Positions 2,785 through 16,663 of a stretch of DNA of 42,548 nt are shown one piece after another (position 1 is the stretch's first letter; each line of letters opens with the position of its first letter). The DNA is from Oscillospiraceae bacterium (GTDB lineage: Bacteria > Bacillota > Clostridia > Oscillospirales > Oscillospiraceae), in assembly GCA_017440065.1 (NCBI GenBank), contig JAFSHY010000116.1, positions 1 through 42,548 on the forward strand, given 5' to 3'. The notes beneath the pieces were generated by a model. It did no database searches. It saw only the letters and a list, made by a program, of their open reading frames with translations, and was not told the origin of the DNA. The translations under genes and the position numbers were made by a program.

Positions 2785-4119
2785 TCAGATCCCGGCTCTG
2801 CGGTAGATCTCCTTCATGCGCTGTGTGCCGTCGGCACGCAGCTTTTCTTCGTCCATGGTCAGGATCCGGCGGTCACGCATGACCAGCTTGCCGTCAATGA
2901 TGGAATCCGTCACGTCCGAGGCACGGACGCCCTCCACAAGCACGTTAACGAGGCTGGCGGTGGGCAGGATGTGAGGCTGCTCTACGTCCAGCAGGATCAG
3001 ATCCGCAAGGTAACCTTCCCGTACCTTGCCCGCTTCCCGTTCCAATCCTGCGCAATGAGCGCCGCCGCAGACCAGCATATCCAGCAGGGTGCGGATGGGC
3101 AGGATCACAGGGTCAAAGATCGGAAGTCCCTGCACTGCCTGAATGGAGAAGCGCAGCAGACGCAGCTCCTCAAAGAGATCCATATTGCAGCCGGAACCGC
3201 CGTCGCTGCCGATGCCGATCTTCAGCCCTGCATGGAGCAGGCGGGGTGTTTTGGGAATGCCGTGGTTGCCGAGATTTGCCCGTGGACAATGGCAGATCCT
3301 CACGTGCTTTTCTGCCAGCAGGTCGATCTCCTGCTCGGAGAGGGAAACGCAGTGGGCTGCCACCAGCCGGTCATTGACGAGGGAAAACCGATCCAGCACC
3401 TCCGCGGGGCGGAGCTGATAGTGCTGCAGGCAGTAGCTGACCTCGTCGCGGTGTTCTGCCAGATGGGCATGAACAAAAGTGTTGTGGGCACGGGAACGAT
3501 CGGCGATCATCTCCAGCAGCGCGGGACTGCAGCTCATCACCTGCCGCATGGCGTAGAAGACGCCGATGCGGCCGTCGCCCATGCCGTTGCAGTCGCGGTA
3601 GAAGGCCTCTGTGCGGTCGATGCATTCCTGCGCGGTCTCTTTCCAGTGGGGCGGGATAAAGCCGCCCTGATCCATGGTGGAGCGGGCCAGCCTTGCGCGG
3701 ATGCCCGATTCCAGCGCGGCCTGCGCCACCGCGTGCATATGGCTGCTGCCGGATTCCACGGTGGTGGTGATGCCGGACTTAATCTGCTGCAGCATGGAGA
3801 GCTGACCGGAAAGATGGCAATCCTCCTCATTGAGTCCGCTCTCAAAGGGAACGAGGATCCTGGTCCATACCATGGGATATTCATCCGCCAGCTTGCCGCG
3901 CAGCATATACTGGCAGGCATGGGTGTGGCCGTCCACAAGGCCGGGCATCAGCAGCTTGCCTTCGCCCCGAAGCGTCTGCGGCGCGGTGTAGGGGCATTCC
4001 GCGTCGGCGCCGAGGGCTTCGATGCGGTTGCCGCGGATGGCCGCGTAGCGGTTCTCTTCGATGGTGTATTCCGGTGTCAGGATCCGGACATTGCGGATCA
4101 GAAGATCACATTGCTTCAT
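2785..4119 (-). CDS. Amidohydrolase-superfamily deaminase (SsnA/TRZ-like)
   Basis: A 444-residue metal-dependent hydrolase. A short beta domain precedes PGLVDGHTHACQ (residues 59-70, metal ligands H65 and H67); further metal-site blocks are HAHLAEHRDE, AAHCVSL and IGSDGGSGCNMDLFEE. These are typical of the branch holding S-adenosylhomocysteine/methylthioadenosine deaminases, chlorohydrolases, guanine deaminases and SsnA. Its position, divergent from a purine permease, favours a purine or purine-nucleoside substrate, but the exact one cannot be read from sequence. The ATG at 4119 is chosen because AAGGAG lies 11 bp before it; a start at 4143 would place the ribosome site inside the gene. Confidence 0.85.
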   Translation of the reverse strand: MKQCDLLIRNVRILTPEYTIEENRYAAIRGNRIEALGADAECPYTAPQTLRGEGKLLMPGLVDGHTHACQYMLRGKLADEYPMVWTRILVPFESGLNEEDCHLSGQLSMLQQIKSGITTTVESGSSHMHAVAQAALESGIRARLARSTMDQGGFIPPHWKETAQECIDRTEAFYRDCNGMGDGRIGVFYAMRQVMSCSPALLEMIADRSRAHNTFVHAHLAEHRDEVSYCLQHYQLRPAEVLDRFSLVNDRLVAAHCVSLSEQEIDLLAEKHVRICHCPRANLGNHGIPKTPRLLHAGLKIGIGSDGGSGCNMDLFEELRLLRFSIQAVQGLPIFDPVILPIRTLLDMLVCGGAHCAGLEREAGKVREGYLADLILLDVEQPHILPTASLVNVLVEGVRASDVTDSIIDGKLVMRDRRILTMDEEKLRADGTQRMKEIYRRAGI

Positions 4120-4177
4120 GCTGTATGCACGCTCCTTTGGCATCGCAGACCACAGCTGCCGCCCTTTTTCTGCAATC

Positions 4178-6000: not shown

Positions 6001-9000
6001 TCAGGCCTTGCGGGCGAAGGCGTAGGTGGAGGATTTGCCGTTCTTGGCGGTCAGAGCATGGTCGCCTTCACCGAAAACGATCGCATCGGCATCCTTGTAA
6101 GAGTTGTAGTTGCCCTTCAGGCAGGCGATGACGGCCTGCTGGGTGGCTTCGTCTACTTCTTCCGAGAACCAGAGCATACCGGAGTTGGATTCTCTGATGT
6201 ACACGGCGGTGATCTTGCCGGAAACAGAGGCGATCTCAACGGAGGTCTGCTTTTTGATGTCGGTCGTTTCAAGGAACTCAACGGCGCCGGTAGCCTTGTC
6301 GATCAGCACGACGCAGACACCGGAAGCCTTACCGGATTCGAGGTTCAACTCAAAAGGCTTCTCCTCAACGGCGGGTTCTTCGACCACGGACTCTTCGACC
6401 TCGGGTTCAACCACGGGCTCTTCGACCTCGGGTTCAACCACGGGCTCTTCGACCTCGGGTTCAACCACGAGTTCTTCGACCACGGGTTCGACCACGGGTT
6501 CTTCGACCTCGGGCTCGACCACGGGCTCTTCAACAACGGGCTCTTCGACCACAGGTTCTTCAGCCTCGGGAGCCTCTGCGGCGGGAACATCGGTCTCGGG
6601 GATGACGGCTGCGGCACCGTCTGCGCTGAAGGTGTAGGTGGCGAACTTGTTGTTCTTATACTCCAGCTCATGATCGCCGGTACCGAAAACAAAGGCATTG
6701 TGACCCTTATAGGAGGGGTTGTTGGCCTTCAGGCAATCGATGACGGCCTGCTGGGTGGCTTCGTCCACTTCCTCGGCGGTCCAGAACAGACCGGAGGTGG
6801 ACTGCTTGATGAACACAGCGGAGATCTTGCCTTCTTCGGAGGGGATCTCGAAGGAGGTTTCGTTCTCGATGTCGATCTTATAGAGGAATTCGACGGCGCC
6901 GGTAGCGGGATCGATCAGCATGAAGCTGATGTTGGAAGCCTGACCGGGCTGGAAGCTGACAACGGGAGGAACATCGGGAGTTTCTTCCACGGGGTAATCA
7001 ACTTCGGGAACGGGGAAGTCCTTGGGATTGCCGCCCTCGGGATACAGTGTTGCGGAATTGTTGGTGTTGACGATGTATTCACCGGCTACAGTCTGCTTTT
7101 CGGTCAGCTGCAGCTTGTAGGTCAGCTTGAGTTCCTGACCCTTCATGATATCCACGCAGAAGGTCCAGACGAACTTTTCGGTGGTCTCACCGTCGCCGTA
7201 GTAGTAATCCAGCAGGAAAGCGGGTTCGGCAGCGCCGGGAGCGGTGAAGGAGAAGGAACCGGTGGCGCCTTCCTTGGTGGTGACCTTGGCAGCGGTGTAA
7301 GCTTCGCCGTCGAGAGTCAGAATCAGGTTGGCAGCGTCTTCGATGAACTCAAAGTTGCCGTTGTCGTTCTTGCCGATGAAGTCTTCCACATAGGAGCCGG
7401 CGGGGATGACGACCATGACATCCTTGATGATGGGCTCGAAGAAGTTTTCATCCAGAACAGTGGTGGCGGAAACAAAGTTGCCTGCCTCGTCACGGGTGTA
7501 ATCCCAAACGGTGGGGGCTTCCGCCTGACCGCCCAGTCTGGCCAGATAGTTCATGAAGCTGTGGCCCAGCTGGATGGTGGAGGTACCGGTGTAGCCAGCG
7601 CCCTGCGTGATGTACTCGGAGCCGTTCTGATAATTGGGGCTTTCGCTGCAGATTGCATAGCAGTGGTAGCCTGCGTTGACCATGTAAGCGTAAACTCTGG
7701 CGGCTTCATACTGGGCGCGCTCGTAGTTCAGGGCGTTCTGGGGGTTGGCACCGGAGCCGATGGCTGCGGGGGTCTTGGTCAGGAAGTTCTCCGCGGTGGG
7801 AACGGGGTTCACGATACCGTTGCCGAAGCGGCTGCCTTCAAGACCCAGTGCTCTCAGATCCTTGCCGTTGTTGGCATACCAGGTTGCATAGGCATTGACA
7901 TCGTTTTTGTCAAACAGAGGAGAGTACACATAGGCGTTCTGGTCTGCCTGTACCCACTTGCAGACATCTGCCCAGTAAGCATCCCAGCTGTTGTTGTAAC
8001 GGGCGGGGATCATGTACAGGGAGGTGTGGCCGCCACGCTGGGACTGCCACAGATAATGACCCCAGTAGTAGGTATCGTTTACCTTGTTGACGATGGTGGA
8101 CTGATCACCGTAGGCATCGTCGAACCAGTAGGTACGGCCGGTGGCCATCACGAAGACATACTTGTTTTCGAAATCTACGGCGGTGTCATTATCCAGCATT
8201 CTCTTGGCTTCCACCAGCTGGCTGTGCAGGTTGGTGGTGCCGACGGGCAGGGAATTGATGTAAGCGAACTTCTCTTCGATCAGCGCTGCGTAGGTGGCAG
8301 GATCAAGCTCGGTCAGCTCCATGATGACTTCCTGGCCGCGTTCCAGCGCGATCAGGCCGAGCTTGACGGAGGTCTTGCCGGCTTCCATCAGAGGCTTAAA
8401 GAGGTTGATGGCGGAATCCACAGTCTCGCGGTTTGCCTGCATGCTGCCGCCCAGGATCAGAACGACATCAATGCTTTCGTCAGCCGCGGTGGAGATGCTC
8501 AGGGTAACATCGGTCTGATCGTTTTCGTCCAGTTCCTCAGCGGTCTTGTCGATGGTGGTTTCCTTGTCGACAGGATTGGGGCTGGTGCCGGGGATCTCGG
8601 GTACGGTGGGAACGGGTTTCTCGGCTTCCACATCGGGAACCTCGATCTCGTTCGTCTGCCGATCGCCGTTTTTGTCGGTATAGGTCAGGTCGGTGTTGCC
8701 GTTGGCAGGCAGCTCCACTTCGTAAACGAAGCCGTTTTCAGCGGTATCGACTGTGACTTCGTACTTGAGAGAGTAGGTATCGGCACGGAGCATGGCGCCG
8801 TCCTTGACGTACCAGGTTAGCTTGTAGATGTCGCCGGAGGTGTTGCCGGTCACATCGTCGCCGCCTGCTGCGTAATCGGCAGCTTCGACCTTCTCGACCG
8901 TAACGGGAACTTCCTGTGCGGTGGGACGGTCTTCGACGTTTTCAATCTTCCAGCCGTCCTGTGCGGACCAGATGACCTCACCGGTGGTGTTGTCAACGAT

Positions 9001-11325
9001 CTTCAGGGTAGCGGCATCCAGATTGACCCACTTGGACATATAGTCGGTCACAACGACATCGTTGAAGGGCGCGATGGAAAGCTCGGTCAGCGTATCCTGC
9101 AGCGCGTCGGTCAGCGTGGTGATGCTGTCGGACTTGACATAGTAGATGTTGTCGGTTTCGGACTTTGCGGCGGCATCGGGCATCCAGGTGGCGCGGCCGT
9201 CATTCTGATATCTGACCAGATACAAACGTTCGACCAGCGTGTTTTCTGCCAGCGCAAAGACGGAGTTGTAGGTGCGGTTCCAGACATCGGGATACTTGTC
9301 GTAGGCGCTGCCCTTCATTGCGATGAGGAAGGAGAAGCTGGTTGCAGCGGCAGTGTGCTCCTCATCGTACTTCAGGAAGGCGCGTTCTGCTTCGGAAATG
9401 GGATAGGTCTTGTTGTAGAGATCCATGCCGGAATAAGCGAACACAGTTTCCCAAATGTAGGTAACAGCGGCATTGAGCTGTTCCTCGGTAGCGTTTGCCT
9501 TTGCTTCTTCCAAAGTGGAATAGCCGGTAGCTGCGGAAAGCGCTTCCGTCAGCAGATCTGCATCGGTATAGTTGAAGGCATAGTTTCTGACATTGGCGGC
9601 GCTGGTGGCAACGTCTGCCCACTTGCTGTAATCTCTGCGGGTCTCGTCGGTGTTGATGCCGCCGTCGGTGATGTAGACCACGACCGCGTCATGGAGTTCC
9701 GTGCTGTGGTTGCGGATGTATTCATCCACACCGGTGAAGCCGGCTTCGCAGTTGGTGGAGGAAACACCGCGCAGCAGGTTGCCGGGCAGCTCGCCGAGGG
9801 CGGCTGCAAGATCGGCAGCATCATCGATCTGGACGAGGACTTCGTTGTCGCCCATACCGAAGGCCATCAGAGTCAGCTTGGTGCTGCCGCTGCCGTTCAG
9901 AACGGCTTCGCCGATGGCATTGATGGCTTCCTTCATGGCGGGCCATTCCTTGTCGCCGGAGTAGGAGCCGTCGACCATCAGAATGACTTCGTCGTGGAGG
10001 GTGTAGCCGTCCTGGCCGGGAACGCTGACGGAGATCTCATAGCGGTCATCCTCGCGGTCCAGCAGTTCGGAGGTCTTGTTGCCCATTTCCATGGGTTCGG
10101 GTTCGGGGAGAGGAGGCAGGGGGATGTCCATGGCGCTCAGATCCAGGGACGCTTCGGCGTAGACCTTGGTGGGGCCCATGTTCACGTCGACCAGATTCTG
10201 AGAAACCTCACGGCTGGTGGCAATGCCGTCGCCGTTGGTATCGGCGGGTCTGGGAGCATAGAAGTAAACGCCCAAGGGCAGAACCTGCGTGCCTTCCACA
10301 ACGGCCGTGACGGTGTCGCTGCGGCCTGCATCGACGGTCAGCGCGTAGGTCTCCTGACCCAGCACAACAGGGATCTCCTGAACGGCAGTGCCGTTGATGA
10401 GAACCTTGATCTTGATGTCATCTTCATAGCCGCTGCCGCTGTTGTTCAGCTCCATGTTCAGATTGACGCGGACGTTGTTGTCGTCGATCAGAACGGGTTC
10501 GCCGTTCAGCTCCAGCTTGGTGATGACGATCTGTGCCTTTTCGGCATAGGTGGCTTCCTGTGCCAGCAGGTATTCGACCAGAGAATCAATGCGGGTACCG
10601 ACCTCTTTGTAGGTCTCAAACACTCTCTTGCCGGCAACATTCAGACCGGATTCGGCGCTGGTGTCATGGAGGGGATAGCCCCACTGCAGGTTGTCGGAAA
10701 CCTTATAAGACTTCTGGTACAGGAAGTCCCCGGCGGTCTTGCCGTTGGCGGAAGCCCAGATCGCGGCCTGCACGGCAGCCAGAGCCTCGTTGCGGGTCAG
10801 CTCTGCGGCATACGCGTAGCCGTTTTCGGCCAGATCGGCCTTCATGGCTTCCAGAGAAACATAGGGATAAGCGTTGGTAACGATGGCACGGATCTTGGCA
10901 GCCTGTTCTTCGTTGTAGTATTCGCTGTCTTCCAGATTCATGCGCTTGTAGTAGGTGCCGTCCGCGATTATGGTTTCCACGTCGCAGCAGTAAGCAACCT
11001 CATAGTTGCTCGTCATAGGATCGTAGATCCCGCTGGGAGACCAGGTGGTGCCGTTATGCTCGACCGTGTCGATCACAACGAAGGTCTGAGGACCTTCACC
11101 ATCGCCCAGGAAGTGGCCGCTGAATTCGTAGCCGTGGACGGGCTGTCTGAACAGAGACATAAAGGTGTAGCCCTCGGTACCGGCGGTGACATCGACGGAC
11201 ACTTCATCACCGTACCAGGTGTTGCCGTTGATCGTCTCTGCCGCGAGGACAGTTGTGCAGAATAAGCCTCCGCACATGACCAGCGCCAGAATCAGGGCGC
11301 AAAGTCGCTTTACAGTATTTGCCAT
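6001..11325 (-). CDS. Large secreted thioester-domain / von Willebrand A adhesin-like protein
   Basis: 1774 residues. Signal peptide 1-29 (ending VLAAE). A thioester domain follows: YCCD (112-115) and AVQAAIW (184-190) correspond to the Cys of the YC.D block and the Gln of the TQxA block that form an internal Cys-Gln thioester (C113 or C114 with Q186) for covalent binding to host surfaces. The usual Thr before Gln is Val. A DTNGDG calcium-type loop starts at D362. vWA domain 1 (about 440-690) has an intact MIDAS: DGSYS (D452, S454, S456) and D554. vWA domain 2 (about 945-1180) is degenerate (GGSMQ at 959-963). Two ~115-residue homologous domains end the protein (1455-1570 and 1658-1774), joined by a Glu/Pro/Val repeat linker. 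No LPXTG or C-terminal membrane segment is seen. ATG 11325 follows AAAGGAG and opens the signal peptide. A c-di-GMP aptamer and a SARP-type operator lie upstream. Confidence 0.88.
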   Translation of the reverse strand: MANTVKRLCALILALVMCGGLFCTTVLAAETINGNTWYGDEVSVDVTAGTEGYTFMSLFRQPVHGYEFSGHFLGDGEGPQTFVVIDTVEHNGTTWSPSGIYDPMTSNYEVAYCCDVETIIADGTYYKRMNLEDSEYYNEEQAAKIRAIVTNAYPYVSLEAMKADLAENGYAYAAELTRNEALAAVQAAIWASANGKTAGDFLYQKSYKVSDNLQWGYPLHDTSAESGLNVAGKRVFETYKEVGTRIDSLVEYLLAQEATYAEKAQIVITKLELNGEPVLIDDNNVRVNLNMELNNSGSGYEDDIKIKVLINGTAVQEIPVVLGQETYALTVDAGRSDTVTAVVEGTQVLPLGVYFYAPRPADTNGDGIATSREVSQNLVDVNMGPTKVYAEASLDLSAMDIPLPPLPEPEPMEMGNKTSELLDREDDRYEISVSVPGQDGYTLHDEVILMVDGSYSGDKEWPAMKEAINAIGEAVLNGSGSTKLTLMAFGMGDNEVLVQIDDAADLAAALGELPGNLLRGVSSTNCEAGFTGVDEYIRNHSTELHDAVVVYITDGGINTDETRRDYSKWADVATSAANVRNYAFNYTDADLLTEALSAATGYSTLEEAKANATEEQLNAAVTYIWETVFAYSGMDLYNKTYPISEAERAFLKYDEEHTAAATSFSFLIAMKGSAYDKYPDVWNRTYNSVFALAENTLVERLYLVRYQNDGRATWMPDAAAKSETDNIYYVKSDSITTLTDALQDTLTELSIAPFNDVVVTDYMSKWVNLDAATLKIVDNTTGEVIWSAQDGWKIENVEDRPTAQEVPVTVEKVEAADYAAGGDDVTGNTSGDIYKLTWYVKDGAMLRADTYSLKYEVTVDTAENGFVYEVELPANGNTDLTYTDKNGDRQTNEIEVPDVEAEKPVPTVPEIPGTSPNPVDKETTIDKTAEELDENDQTDVTLSISTAADESIDVVLILGGSMQANRETVDSAINLFKPLMEAGKTSVKLGLIALERGQEVIMELTELDPATYAALIEEKFAYINSLPVGTTNLHSQLVEAKRMLDNDTAVDFENKYVFVMATGRTYWFDDAYGDQSTIVNKVNDTYYWGHYLWQSQRGGHTSLYMIPARYNNSWDAYWADVCKWVQADQNAYVYSPLFDKNDVNAYATWYANNGKDLRALGLEGSRFGNGIVNPVPTAENFLTKTPAAIGSGANPQNALNYERAQYEAARVYAYMVNAGYHCYAICSESPNYQNGSEYITQGAGYTGTSTIQLGHSFMNYLARLGGQAEAPTVWDYTRDEAGNFVSATTVLDENFFEPIIKDVMVVIPAGSYVEDFIGKNDNGNFEFIEDAANLILTLDGEAYTAAKVTTKEGATGSFSFTAPGAAEPAFLLDYYYGDGETTEKFVWTFCVDIMKGQELKLTYKLQLTEKQTVAGEYIVNTNNSATLYPEGGNPKDFPVPEVDYPVEETPDVPPVVSFQPGQASNISFMLIDPATGAVEFLYKIDIENETSFEIPSEEGKISAVFIKQSTSGLFWTAEEVDEATQQAVIDCLKANNPSYKGHNAFVFGTGDHELEYKNNKFATYTFSADGAAAVIPETDVPAAEAPEAEEPVVEEPVVEEPVVEPEVEEPVVEPVVEELVVEPEVEEPVVEPEVEEPVVEPEVEESVVEEPAVEEKPFELNLESGKASGVCVVLIDKATGAVEFLETTDIKKQTSVEIASVSGKITAVYIRESNSGMLWFSEEVDEATQQAVIACLKGNYNSYKDADAIVFGEGDHALTAKNGKSSTYAFARKA
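6380..6550 (-). repeat. 27-bp tandem repeats coding an EPVVEPEVE-type linker
   Basis: Near-identical 27-bp units (9 codons, EEPVVEPEV register) occur at least three times in a row, followed by diverged copies with VVEEPVVEEP register. They form the acidic Pro-rich spacer between the two C-terminal domains of the surface protein. Copy number is likely to vary between strains, since identical units slip easily. Confidence 0.85.
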
Positions 11326-11573: not shown

Positions 11574-11606
11574 AGTATACCCTGTTTCTGTTACGAAACG
11601 TGTTAC
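11574..11606 (-). promoter_or_regulatory. SARP-type operator and -10 box of the surface protein promoter
   Basis: On the minus strand two direct repeats GTAACA (11606-11601 and 11594-11589) start 12 bp apart, and the nearer ends 9 bp before a -10 box TATACT (11579-11574). There is no -35 consensus; the nearer repeat occupies the -35 position. This geometry is the one described for SARP/BTAD activators, whose direct repeats lie at ~11-bp periodicity close to the -10. The same element with identical spacing precedes the small-protein/regulator operon at 13455-13487. Transcription would start near 11567. Confidence 0.72.
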
Positions 11607-11670
11607 ATTTTGCGGAATGTTATTCAAAAGATACCGTGTGCGTAACTTATGGTAATCTGTGACAAAAAGA

Positions 11671-11700
11671 AAAAGCGGCAGATACTGCCGCTTTTTCGGA
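11671..11700 (-). terminator. Terminator of the SARP-like regulator gene
   Basis: An 11-bp perfect stem (11671-11681 with 11685-11695) with a 3-base loop, flanked by U-rich sequence on the minus strand (TTTTCTTTTTG). It starts 15 bp after the regulator's stop codon and separates it from the downstream surface protein promoter. Confidence 0.85.
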
Positions 11701-11709
11701 ATGACGGTA

Positions 11710-12906
11710 TTAAGAACGGGTGCTGGGCATCAGAGGCTGCACAAAGAAATCCACATAGACAGGTGCGTGGGGATATTTCTTTTCAAAGGCGGAAATGAAC
11801 CGCCGGCATACCTTGCAGCTGTTCTCGTAGTTGGCGGAAGGAAGCATCACAAGGAACTGCGAGGCGCTGCATCGGGTGATCACATCCCCCTTCCGCAGGG
11901 AACGGCCGAGATGCTGCTCCAGATTATCCATGGCAAGGGAGAGACTTCTTTCCGATACATCCCGCCGGGAGAGCGGCTTCAGTGTCAGCAGCGCGATGTG
12001 GATCACCTGCCCGCTGCGTACCACAACTCTGGCCTGCGCCTGATAGACCATGCGGAAGAAATCGTAATCACAGATCAGCGCGCTGCGGATCTCGTCCTGC
12101 TCGGAAAGCCGGGCGATCGCGTCTTCGGGGGAGATCACGCTGCCGCGGGTATCCGTCTGCAGCGCTTCGCGGTAAAGGGCTCTGCTTTCCTGATCCGGCA
12201 TGACACCGAAGGCGGTCAGCAGCAGCTTGCTCATTTCCTCGTATACCTGCATGACCTCCTGCCGTCTGCCCTCTGCCAGAAGGGCTCGCATCAGGTGCTG
12301 GTAGAAGGTTTCGTTATAGGGGTCAAATTCCAGCGCTTTCCGGCAGATCGTGATATCTTCTTCATACCGCTTCTGCTCCTCCAAAAGGGGGATCACACGG
12401 TCCACGATGGCGGTAAACACATTCTGATAATAGGCCTGCACGGGCATGACCCAAAGCTCGGAGGACTGCATCGGCAGGAACTTGCCTTCATACAGCTCCA
12501 ACGCGGCCAGACCTGCCTCCAGATCGTCGCTGCTGCCGGAAAGGGATACCGCCAGACGGTCGAATTCGTCCGTATCCACGACGGTTTCCACTTCGGGATT
12601 CCAAAGATAGCCGCCGTTTTTGGAGATCAGCAGCTGCACGGAGGGATCGTCTACCAGCTCGCTGAGCATCTGACGCGCCCTGTGGATGGCGGTACGCATG
12701 GCGCTGGAGGGATTGCCGTTCTTTTCGGACTTCCAGATGACGGCGCTCAGTTCCTCCGCGGATACAAATTCGCCGCGGTGACACACCAGATAGGCCAGCA
12801 TGTTCCAAAGAAGCTTGGAGCGGCTTTCGCTGCAGCTGATCGTTCTGCCTGCATAGCTTAGAGAAAATGTGCCGAACATCTGCACATGAAGTGTTTCTGC
12901 ATTCAT
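11710..12906 (-). CDS. SARP-like BTAD transcriptional regulator with degenerate GGDEF domain
   Basis: 398 residues in three parts. Residues 5-105 form an OmpR/SARP winged helix (VQMFGTFSLSYAG, SKLLWNMLAYLVCHRGEFVS). Residues 110-250 form a bacterial transcriptional activation domain (TPR-like; YEGKFLP, YEEDITICRKALEFDPYNE). Residues 285-390 resemble a GGDEF fold with the catalytic motif replaced by SASQF (347-351). Upstream of it RKGD (338-341) sits exactly where the RxxD c-di-GMP inhibitory site stands in diguanylate cyclases (RxxD, five residues, GGDEF). The domain is thus probably catalytically dead but could bind c-di-GMP; that is inference. Start ATG 12906, after GGAAGGAGG. It is the second gene of an operon with the 135-residue protein. 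Its likely targets are the two operators at 11574-11606 and 13455-13487. Confidence 0.85.
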   Translation of the reverse strand: MNAETLHVQMFGTFSLSYAGRTISCSESRSKLLWNMLAYLVCHRGEFVSAEELSAVIWKSEKNGNPSSAMRTAIHRARQMLSELVDDPSVQLLISKNGGYLWNPEVETVVDTDEFDRLAVSLSGSSDDLEAGLAALELYEGKFLPMQSSELWVMPVQAYYQNVFTAIVDRVIPLLEEQKRYEEDITICRKALEFDPYNETFYQHLMRALLAEGRRQEVMQVYEEMSKLLLTAFGVMPDQESRALYREALQTDTRGSVISPEDAIARLSEQDEIRSALICDYDFFRMVYQAQARVVVRSGQVIHIALLTLKPLSRRDVSERSLSLAMDNLEQHLGRSLRKGDVITRCSASQFLVMLPSANYENSCKVCRRFISAFEKKYPHAPVYVDFFVQPLMPSTRS

Positions 12907-13004
12907 GCTGCGTACCTCCTTCCCGACGGTTTCCGATAGCGGACAGAGCATCAGAAATAGCGGTTCGGAGGAGCGGGATCATAGCCCCTGAACGGAAACG
13001 CCTC

Positions 13005-13454: not shown

Positions 13455-13487
13455 AGTATATCCAAATTCTGTTACAAAACCTGTTAC
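13455..13487 (-). promoter_or_regulatory. SARP-type operator and -10 box of the small protein/regulator operon
   Basis: On the minus strand GTAACA repeats lie at 13487-13482 and 13475-13470 (12 bp start to start), and TATACT at 13460-13455, 9 bp beyond the nearer repeat. Bases between and around them also resemble the element at 11574-11606 (GTTT between the repeats, CAGAA after the second). The leader is ~36 nt and has no riboswitch. This suggests autoregulation by the encoded regulator. The AT-rich stretch 13488-13650 upstream shows no gene. Confidence 0.72.
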
Positions 13488-13650: not shown

Positions 13651-14367
13651 TTACGACTGCTCCGCGATCGGGCGGTCGGGCAGCGGCTCGCCGCTGCCGC
13701 CCGTGAGCAGCTCCGCGGGGAAGAGATTCCACGGATAGGCGTCGGGCGGCCTGCGGAGAAGATCGACCTGTTTTCCCGTGGAAGGATGGGAGAAGGCCAG
13801 ATGGAACGACCAAAGGGCGCAGTCGCAGGCGGGGTCCTTGCTTCCGTAGCGGATGTCGCCCAGCAGCGGCAGCCCGCGGGAGGAGAACTGCGCGCGGATC
13901 TGATGGGTGCGTCCCGTATGCAGCCGTACCCGCACCAGCGTCAGCGTATCGGTCTTTGCCAGCACACGGTAGGCGAGGGAGGCGTCGCGGACGCCCTTTC
14001 GCATCCGCTTGACTACATAGGTCTTGTTCTTCGTGCTGTCGCGGAAGAGCAGATCCTGCAGGATGCCCTCTTTTTCTTCGATATGACCGCGCAGCACGGC
14101 GAGGTATTCCTTCGTCACGCGGTGTTCCGCCACGGCGGCGGTCAGCTTTCCCGTGATCTGTTTTTTGCGGGAAAAGACCATCAGACCGCCCACATTGCGG
14201 TCCAGACGGTGAACGCCCGCGATAAAATCGGGCTTGCCCGCTTCCCTGTATCGGGCGGCCAGCAGCTTCGGCATGCAGTTTTCGGTGGGGCCGTCCTCGG
14301 AAAGGCAGCCGACGGGCTTGACGCAGACCAGCAGATCGCGGTCTTCATATACGATCTCGGGAACCAT
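13651..14367 (-). CDS. RluA-family pseudouridine synthase
   Basis: 238 residues holding only the catalytic domain, without an S4 domain. Motif I is GVHRLDRNVGGLMVFSR (about 51-67), with the catalytic Asp in HRLDR; the family usually has HRLDxxTSGL, so the Thr-Ser is changed to Val-Gly. Motif II is VRVRLHTGRTHQIRAQ (about 145-160), and GDIRYG follows. Such enzymes isomerise uridine in 23S rRNA or tRNA. The start is the ATG at 14367, eight bases after GGAGG; a GTG nine bases upstream overlaps the spacer. The short length fits single-domain RluA paralogues (220-250). Which RNA site it modifies cannot be told. Confidence 0.88.
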   Translation of the reverse strand: MVPEIVYEDRDLLVCVKPVGCLSEDGPTENCMPKLLAARYREAGKPDFIAGVHRLDRNVGGLMVFSRKKQITGKLTAAVAEHRVTKEYLAVLRGHIEEKEGILQDLLFRDSTKNKTYVVKRMRKGVRDASLAYRVLAKTDTLTLVRVRLHTGRTHQIRAQFSSRGLPLLGDIRYGSKDPACDCALWSFHLAFSHPSTGKQVDLLRRPPDAYPWNLFPAELLTGGSGEPLPDRPIAEQS

Positions 14368-14491
14368 GGCAGACACCTCCTTTTCCGTTAGTATACCAAA
14401 ACAGGAAAAAAACGCAACCGCTATTCAAAAAGACCGCTTTATGGGACAAGTATTCTGCTATGCTGAAAGAAAACCCAAGGGAGGCATCTTT

Positions 14492-16663
14492 ATGCTGGAA
14501 CTGAATGATCTGAACAGGGAGCAGCGGCAGGCGGTGGAGACCACCGAAGGCTATATCCGCGTGGTGGCAGGCGCGGGATCGGGCAAGACCCGCACGCTGA
14601 CCAGACGGTTTCTTTATCTGGTGGAGGCGCTGGGCATCTCCACCTCTGCCATCCTCTGCGTGACCTTTACCAACAAAGCCGCGGCGGAGATGAAAAAGCG
14701 CATCCGTCAGACGCTGCCGGATCAGGATCTGGCGCATATCACCACCTTCCACGGCTTCTGCATGACGCTTTTGAAGGAGGATTGCCATGTGCTGCAGTAT
14801 CCTTCCACGTTCATCGTGCTGGATGAGGAGGATAAGGCGGGCATCCTTCGGAATGTATTTGCCGATCTGGGGCTGACCTCACGGGATCTGACGGTAAAGG
14901 ATGCCATCGACTATATCGGCTGGCGCAAGGGCGGCAGAGGCTATGTGAAAACGCTGATCGATATGGATCTGGACCGTCTGCGGCAGTTGGAAAAGGACGC
15001 CTCCACCGTCAAGGATAAGGTCATGTACCGCTATTTCTATGAGCAGCGCAAGTGCTACGGGCTGGATTTTGACGATCTGGTCTACTTTGCCCTGCACATT
15101 CTGCAGACCGATCGGGAGACCCGCGAAAAGTGGCAGAAGCGCATGGAATATATCATGGTGGATGAATTTCAGGATATCGACAAGGATCAGTATGAGCTGG
15201 CGGAGATCCTCTCCGGCTATCACAAAAACCTTTTTGTGGTGGGCGATCCCGATCAGACGATCTATACCTGGCGCGGCGCGGACGTCAAATTCATGCTGGA
15301 GTTTGAAAGCCGCCATGAAGGCGCGAAGACCGTCTATCTGAATCAGAACTACCGTTCCGTGCCTGAGATCCTGCAGGCCTCCAATGCCCTCATCGAAAAG
15401 AATCGGGAACGTCTGCCCAAGCAGCTGACGGCCGTCCGACCCGGCGGTGTGAAGCCTCTTTACTTCCATGCGAAAACCTCGGAGCTGGAGGCGGACTGGA
15501 TCGCGGAGAAGATCAAGCGGCTGGTGCGGGAGGGGATTCCGCATTCGAAGATCGGCGTTCTGTACCGCGCCCACTATGTCTCCCGTACGGTGGAAGAAGC
15601 GCTGATCCGCGAGAAGATCCCCTATGTGCTCTATTCCGGTGTGGAGTTCTATAAGCGCAAGGAGATCAAGGACGTCATCTGTTATCTGCGCATGGTCTAC
15701 TGCGGCGACGATCTGGCCTTTTTGCGCACAGTCAATGAACCGCGCCGCGGTGTGGGGCGGACAAGGATCGCTGCTCTCAAGGAATATGCCGCGCTGCACC
15801 GCTGCAGCCTCTATGAGGCGCTGCTGGAAAATCTGGATTCGGATCTGTTCCGCCGCAGCCGTGCCAAAGAGTATGCCCGCATGATCGAGAAATACCGCGC
15901 CATCTATGACAGGATGGATCTGACGGATCTGCTGGCGGGCATCCTGTCCGAAAGCGGCTATTAGGCCATGCTGCGCCTTTCGGGCGAGGAAGACCGCCTG
16001 GACAATCTGGCGGAGCTGAAGCAGGCAATTTTTGATTATGAGGCCAAGGCGGGCGAAGACGTCACGCTGGCCGCCTATTTGGATCATGCCGCCCTCTTTA
16101 CCAATATGGACGGAGCCGAGCGGGTGGCAGCGGTCAAGCTCATGACGGTGCATGCGGCCAAGGGCCTGGAATTCCCCGCGGTGTTCGTTTGCGGCCTGTC
16201 TGAGGGCATTTTCCCCTCCAAAAAGACGGATACGCGGGAAAAGCTGGAGGAGGAGCGGCGGCTGGCCTATGTGGCCTGTACCCGCGCCTGTGATCGCCTG
16301 TTCCTCTCCGATGCCGCGGGAACGAACTATGACGGCTCCTACCGCTATCCTTCCCGCTTCCTCTTTAATGCCGGGAAGGAGAATCTCGACTTTGTTGTTC
16401 CGCTGGATCCGGAGCTGATCGAGGAGGCGGGCAGAGTCATCAGCCGCACGGAACCGGATTGCGGCTTCTGCAGGCGGGAGGAAGGGTTGACGGCGGGAAC
16501 ATGGGTGCGGCATCCCATCTTCGGCGAAGGTCAGCTTCTGCTGCCGGAGGAAACGGGAGCGGTCTGCCTCGTGCAGTTCACCGGCATGGTCACGCCCCGC
16601 AGCGTCAAGCGGGAAATGCTGGAGCTTGCCGATCAGATGGTGCTGCCCGGCAGAGAATTTTGA
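14492..16663 (+). pseudogene. pcrA: PcrA/UvrD-type DNA helicase with an in-frame TAG stop
   Basis: Read through, the frame codes ~722 residues, normal for PcrA/UvrD. The first part has the Q motif (LNREQRQAV), Walker A AGAGSGKTRTL (about 27-37), TFTNKAAAEM, DEFQDID (Walker B), GDPDQTIYTWRGA and QNYRS. At 15962-15964 a TAG interrupts the frame (SGY[14 protein letters not shown]). The remainder keeps motif V ([14 protein letters not shown]), motif VI ([14 protein letters not shown]) and the C-terminal Tudor-like end ([10 protein letters not shown]). Everything else in the frame is intact and well conserved, so the stop is recent, a sequencing error, or is read through. TAG ends at least one other gene here (29042-29044), so it is not generally reassigned. 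Without read-through the product lacks motifs V and VI and should be inactive. The ribosome site GGGAGG precedes ATG 14492. It acts in DNA repair and replication-fork clearance. Confidence 0.85.

Follow-up and report, generated by a model that had tools for sequence, protein, structure and literature searches.

Which protein reads the tandem repeat GTAACA-N6-GTAACA-N9-TATACT that precedes two promoters of this Oscillospiraceae contig, and to what effect? The window, i.e. the whole stretch of 42,548 nt analyzed here, contains the pattern twice without a mismatch, both times on the minus strand and 1.9 kb apart (Table 1). It belongs to an incomplete MAG of 1.93 Mb (85.7% complete). Judging from the sequence, we consider it very probable that a single SARP activator encoded between the two sites serves both promoters, namely that of a thioester adhesin led by a riboswitch and that of its own partner-regulator operon.

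The genes of the locus are all on the minus strand, in the order operator 2, partner, regulator, terminator-like hairpin, operator 1, riboswitch and secreted protein. Operator 2 is separated by 36 nt from the partner gene. The surface protein comprises ~1774 residues, with a TQXA domain just under the cut-off, and a Shine-Dalgarno sequence is present at its start codon. The match to the c-di-GMP-I aptamer in its leader spans model positions 1–87 of 87 and lies above the gathering threshold.

Table 1. Features of the operator locus, in the order of transcription (positions refer to the window).
Feature	Position	Strand	Remarks
Operator-promoter 2	13455..13487	-	TGTAACAG-GTTTT-GTAACAG-N8-TATACT; would serve the partner and regulator operon (putative autoregulation)
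Conserved partner protein, 137 aa	13005..13418	-	first gene of the operator 2 operon
SARP-type regulator: OmpR-like wHTH, BTAD, degenerate GGDEF	11710..12951	-	likely start 12906
Intrinsic-terminator-like hairpin	11669..11697	-	3' of the regulator; sets operator 1 apart from the partner-regulator operon
Operator-promoter 1	11574..11606	-	TGTAACAC-GTTTC-GTAACAG-N8-TATACT; would serve the riboswitch and surface protein
c-di-GMP-I (GEMM-I) riboswitch aptamer, RF01051	11368..11453	-	leader of the surface gene; 69 bits, cut-off 35
Large secreted surface protein	6001..11325	-	signal peptide, thioester domain (TED), GBS104-like Ig domains

The partner carries the motif RQNASWQGxVxWxxG...FRSxLELxxLMDxxL, which ends in LMDxAL in the family version, and no model in Pfam or NCBIfam matched it. 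Its NASWQG stretch resembles N-x-S-x-x-G, but an assignment to PilZ was rejected because the spacing of RxxxR does not fit and no Pfam model matched. Within the partner family (the window protein and relatives L207–L285) the N- and C-terminal halves look like a duplicated unit; members from Lachnospiraceae are ~290 aa long, and the short ones (~60 aa) contain a single unit. Elsewhere in the window (14480–16663), the frame of a UvrD-like helicase is broken by an in-frame TAG at 15962–15964 and picks up again at 15968 without a change of frame.

With up to three mismatches allowed, neither the window nor a genome-wide scan contained a site beyond these two, and the looser patterns GTAACN{6,7}GTAACN{9,11}TANNNT and TAAC-N8-TAAC-N10-TANNNT found no additional ones in the whole genome. 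The 33-bp cores of the two operators are identical in 27 of 33 bases. Their 100-bp flanks yielded local alignment scores of 14 and 14, with 95th percentiles of ~18 for shuffled sequence. As this is within the range of shuffled sequence, the two operators are not a duplicated segment. The distance of only 1.9 kb might suggest coincidence or a recent promoter duplication. However, 100 dinucleotide shuffles of the window gave no match, the flanks are unrelated, and the same layout recurs in many genera, so that the relatives already refute this explanation; we regard its probability as close to nil.

A -35 box at a spacer of 16–18 bp is absent from both promoters, the hexamers there being CACGTT, ACGTTT and ACACGT at one and CAGGTT, AGGTTT and ACAGGT at the other, and a sigma-70 promoter scan listed neither site. 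On these points the sequence-only reading was accurate: it had described one repeat/-10 geometry at two promoters 1.9 kb apart, which is exact at both sites and lies where it was placed, and it had stated that a -35 box is missing and that the sites did not arise by duplication.

Because a T precedes the first GTAAC at both sites, TGTAACA/C-G describes the repeat more accurately. Written as the heptamers GTAACAC and GTAACAG, it has a period of 12 bp and ends exactly 8 bp from the -10 element in both cases. The repeats overlap the -35 region without providing a consensus -35, and the overall layout, heptamer-N4/5-heptamer-N8-(-10), resembles the geometry of a SARP operator. Published SARP operators are direct repeats with a period of 11 or 22 bp, the 3' repeat being 8 bp from the -10 (PMC10936776). 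The 12-bp period of the window sites departs from the canonical 11 and was counted against a SARP assignment.

The regulator encoded between the sites scores 27.1 bits for Trans_reg_C (cut-off 26.2) and 60.4 bits for BTAD (cut-off 22.1; 3.3e-16), and it is the sole BTAD protein in the genome, as far as the 85.7% complete MAG represents it. Profile searches matched it to AfsR (8.8e-19), EmbR (2.1e-11) and GGDEF structures (1.8e-7), AfsR and EmbR being the closest solved relatives. An AlphaFold model calculated from a 10-sequence alignment (pLDDT 82; single-sequence pLDDT 40) matches the folds of AfsR and EmbR, and its C-terminal part those of the GGDEF structures 6khu, 3ign and 6zxm. The activator had remained unnamed in the sequence-only reading; the adjacent SARP/BTAD regulator, together with the 8-bp distance of the 3' repeat from the -10, now provides a candidate.

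In the C-terminal domain the motif RKGD is kept, and GGDEF is replaced by SASQF. Across the 35 orthologues that cover this domain, RxxD is found in 34 and the catalytic GG(D/E)EF motif of an active diguanylate cyclase in none. Five residues separate the RxxD from the place of the lost catalytic motif, which puts it at the position of the I-site. Degenerate GGDEF receptors of the PelD/PopA type have a GGDEF fold without the catalytic motif and retain the RxxD I-site. Sequence and model suggest both features for the regulator, here fused to a DNA-binding activator, with c-di-GMP binding only predicted. Because a non-catalytic GGDEF fold keeps RxxD, c-di-GMP may be the effector of the regulator. 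The motif does not prove binding, since ordinary GGDEF domains also have it.

We searched 149 genomes, the source genome and its relatives, and found the regulator in 34 of them. The strict pattern GTAACN{6,7}GTAACN{9,11}TATANT was present in 11/34 genomes with and 3/115 without the regulator (Fisher 4.6e-6; because the genomes are related, Fisher values overstate their independence), and in the three regulator-free genomes the site precedes unrelated genes. The operator consensus was partly derived from relatives before this count, which makes the GTDB-wide scan described below the more independent test. In six relatives the operator adjoins the regulator gene and points at the divergent gene, and the best site always has the 8-bp gap. 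A maximum-likelihood tree places the window regulator in a 12-member clade (support 100/100). All eight clade members with a known operator have the 12-bp period; outside the clade, 11 of 13 regulators go with 11 bp only, one with 12 and one with both. Many relatives therefore show a period of 11 bp, and the window regulator with its clade one of 12 bp, compared with the 11 or 22 bp published for SARPs. Organism ancestry may contribute to this covariation.

Regulators of the OmpR/PhoB type, too, recognise tandem repeats of ~11 bp immediately before the -10. The operator could therefore belong to another regulator, for example a response regulator of this family encoded elsewhere, with the adjacent SARP as a mere target. 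In line with this, 45 of the 56 c-di-GMP-I leaders in regulator-bearing genomes are without an operator. We nevertheless think this unlikely: the operator co-occurs with the SARP gene, adjoins the divergent SARP gene in relatives, keeps the exact SARP spacing of 8 bp and has a repeat period that follows the SARP clade. For many orthologues of the regulator we could recognise no operator in the vicinity, and 23 of the 34 regulator-bearing genomes lack a strict match. Together with the leaders just mentioned, this means that the operator has diverged in sequence or that other targets exist for the regulator; its specificity has either shifted or is wider than our motif.

For this more independent test, 84,980 GTDB species genomes were searched with GTAACCGN{4,5}GTAACCGN{7,9}TATANT. 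This yielded 93 stretches, of which 80 sites were analyzed. Although gaps of 7, 8 and 9 to the -10 were allowed, 56 sites have a gap of 8 (22 have 7, two have 9). These gap-8 sites are mostly from Clostridia, chiefly Oscillospiraceae and Lachnospiraceae. They precede the partner protein in 23 cases and proteins with a signal peptide, as called by a crude hydrophobicity rule, in 18. The corresponding numbers for the 24 gap-7 and gap-9 sites are 0 and 2 (41/56 vs 2/24, 5.9e-8). The T before each repeat, a base outside the search pattern, is present in 48/51 and 47/51 of the distinct gap-8 sites, compared with 10/20 and 8/20 at other gaps. We rejected the gap-7 and gap-9 matches as operators, as they are mostly unrelated sequences such as biotin carboxylase coding sequence and LacI-type palindromes.

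The scan of the genome and its relatives proposed in the sequence-only reading agreed with the expectation of surface or GEMM-I-linked targets: in relatives, the sites precede c-di-GMP riboswitches, genes for secreted proteins and the small partner gene. The suggested searchable regulon is supported for relatives and GTDB genomes, where sites can be predicted, but in the source genome it amounts to just two promoters. The idea of one activator for both promoters gains support from the co-occurrence of operator and regulator in relatives.

The fixed distance of the element from the -10, combined with the missing sigma-70 -35 box, would also be expected if GTAACA were the -35-like element of a promoter type read by an alternative sigma factor. 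We consider this very improbable, as the -10 is of the housekeeping TATAAT type, the element consists of two direct copies 11 or 12 bp apart, and the association is with the SARP gene. We know of no sigma factor that needs two direct repeats at such a distance. A SARP-like protein might instead bind the sites as a repressor, covering the -35 region and excluding RNA polymerase. The overlap of the repeats with this region, where repressors also bind, and the position of site 2 before the regulator's own operon would fit. Since neither site has a -35 box, however, the promoters should be weak unaided, and SARP proteins with this geometry activate (PMC10936776, PMC10972967); repression is improbable to our judgment.

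From the observed operator geometry, regulator domains and cross-genome association we infer that the SARP-type regulator binds and activates both promoters. Each TGTAAC(A/C)G repeat would be occupied by one of two protomers, arranged head to tail along a single face of the double helix. Placed 8 bp upstream of the -10, the bound regulator would replace the missing -35 contact, as AfsR does. Via site 2 it would turn on its own partner-regulator operon (autoregulation) and via site 1 the thioester surface protein. The mRNA from site 1 would then pass the c-di-GMP-I riboswitch, which would gate translation.

The direction of this gate was approached by folding the site-1 leader under constraints. 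Forcing the candidate P1 (GAAAUAC/GUGUUUC) frees most of the otherwise paired Shine-Dalgarno sequence; forcing the core aptamer alone leaves it sequestered. On balance an ON switch is favoured: c-di-GMP probably turns translation on, a statement we make with low confidence.

Riboswitches are more common in genomes with the regulator (25/34) than in those without (9/50). An operator lies at most 500 nt upstream of 11 of the 56 c-di-GMP-I leaders of regulator-bearing genomes. All five leaders of genome G089 have one. The controls gave 0/672 for shuffled sequences (12 sets), 0 for the antisense strand and 1/22 for leaders from regulator-free genomes. In the opposite direction, 13 of 18 gap-8 loci chosen for long leaders have a same-strand c-di-GMP-I riboswitch downstream of the operator, as opposed to none of 20 other loci, mostly gap-8 sites with short leaders. 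The riboswitch is thus frequent in the Oscillospiraceae branch and not obligatory. Downstream of operators in relatives we found c-di-GMP-I riboswitches (L069 twice, L098, L099), a c-di-GMP-I-GGC riboswitch (L105) and, in L097, a class II c-di-GMP riboswitch. Because class II is an unrelated RNA, the pairing of operator and riboswitch does not simply reflect descent from a single leader. In L039 and L042 the operator is followed by the partner gene, the riboswitch and the surface gene, in this order.

With its GGDEF-like C-terminal domain and the RxxD motif, the regulator might also have c-di-GMP as its effector. The dead GGDEF domain would then bind c-di-GMP at its I-site and switch the activator, and the riboswitch would read the same messenger again in the target mRNA. 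We offer this as a possible but tentative extension. If true, it would constitute a two-layer c-di-GMP gate on adhesins of gut Clostridia, with the 137-aa partner as a further component, and the system would allow a direct test of one messenger being read at the level of transcription and of mRNA.

To our knowledge, SARP activators are known almost only as switches of antibiotic clusters in Actinomycetes. The AfsR-type SARPs of Streptomyces (afs box at afsS) share with the window system the OmpR-like DNA-binding domain, the BTAD and two direct repeats that overlap the -35 region, with 8 bp between the 3' copy and the -10 (PMC10936776). The system described here differs in its host (Clostridia instead of Actinomycetes), its heptamer GTAAC(A/C)G, the 12-bp period of this clade, the C-terminal degenerate GGDEF domain in place of the NOD-TPR part of AfsR, and its putative targets, which are surface proteins and not antibiotic genes. 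EmbR of Mycobacterium tuberculosis (PDB-entries 2fez and 2ff4) has the same wHTH-BTAD core followed by a C-terminal sensory domain, which is a phosphopeptide-binding FHA domain there and GGDEF-like here. SARP-LAL regulators such as PimR likewise fuse the SARP domain to a large C-terminal regulatory half, in that case ATPase/guanylate-cyclase-like. They use two or three repeats of a different heptamer and tolerate non-canonical spacing, e.g. 10 bp at a secondary PimR operator (PMC5930380).

In Clostridioides difficile, c-di-GMP riboswitches precede adhesin or pilus genes as well, but we know of no dedicated SARP activator at these promoters. Searches of the open-access literature for such a regulator joining BTAD and GGDEF, and for SARP, Clostridia, direct repeats and riboswitch in combination, found nothing. 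A SARP with a new sensory domain appears to run surface-adhesin genes across gut Oscillospiraceae and Lachnospiraceae, and the RNAs from these promoters often carry c-di-GMP riboswitches. The operator TGTAACCG-N4/5-GTAACCG-N8-TATAAT can be searched for, which makes the regulon predictable in hardly manipulable genomes, and the conserved partner family gains a genomic context.

Further observations concern individual loci. Identical-sequence gap-8 operators stand upstream of secreted proteins in L231 and L254, both from the non-clostridial Nitrospirae MAG S146_51, and a large SARP-like ORF (E 7e-36) is present on one of these stretches as well. In L098, L232 and L247 the operator precedes a signal-peptidase-I-like gene, with a riboswitch as well in L098 and L232. 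A small coiled-coil-like ORF lies before this gene in L098 and L247, and a large surface protein follows in L098.

The four other c-di-GMP-I leaders of the source genome, at 7833–7918, 10686–10771 and 13736–13821 (minus strand) of L075 (G000:C98) and at 4086–4171 (minus strand) of L076 (G000:C39), have in common an extended conserved stretch that precedes the aptamer, GAGGATTTTTATTTCTTCT...TTTGTCAGAGAGGAGGTTC..., which ends in ATCAGAAAT and may be another structured RNA or a small ORF. Secreted proteins of 700–870 aa are encoded downstream of at least three of them. A tandem GTAACTATTTT-GAAACTATTTT-like element, a weaker GTAAC-like sequence, is located ~220 nt upstream of three of the four riboswitches, with a similar one at the fourth. 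These elements were not counted as operators, as they lie upstream of normal -35/-10 promoters (in at least three cases) and lack the 8-bp geometry.

Between the regulator and a divergent pilus-like operon no operator was found in L039, L041, L042, L044 and L051. Upstream of the lipoprotein divergent from the regulator, L039, L044 and L051 have AAAAAGTACTT ~20 nt before GCTATACT/GCTACACT, with GspF-like genes nearby in L039 and L051. This element is apparently another regulator's promoter element for the type IV pilus-like operon. In L107 (6491, plus strand), an operator precedes the gene of a secreted protein, and GspF-like and prepilin-like ORFs come next, which suggests that pilus genes belong to the regulon of G041.
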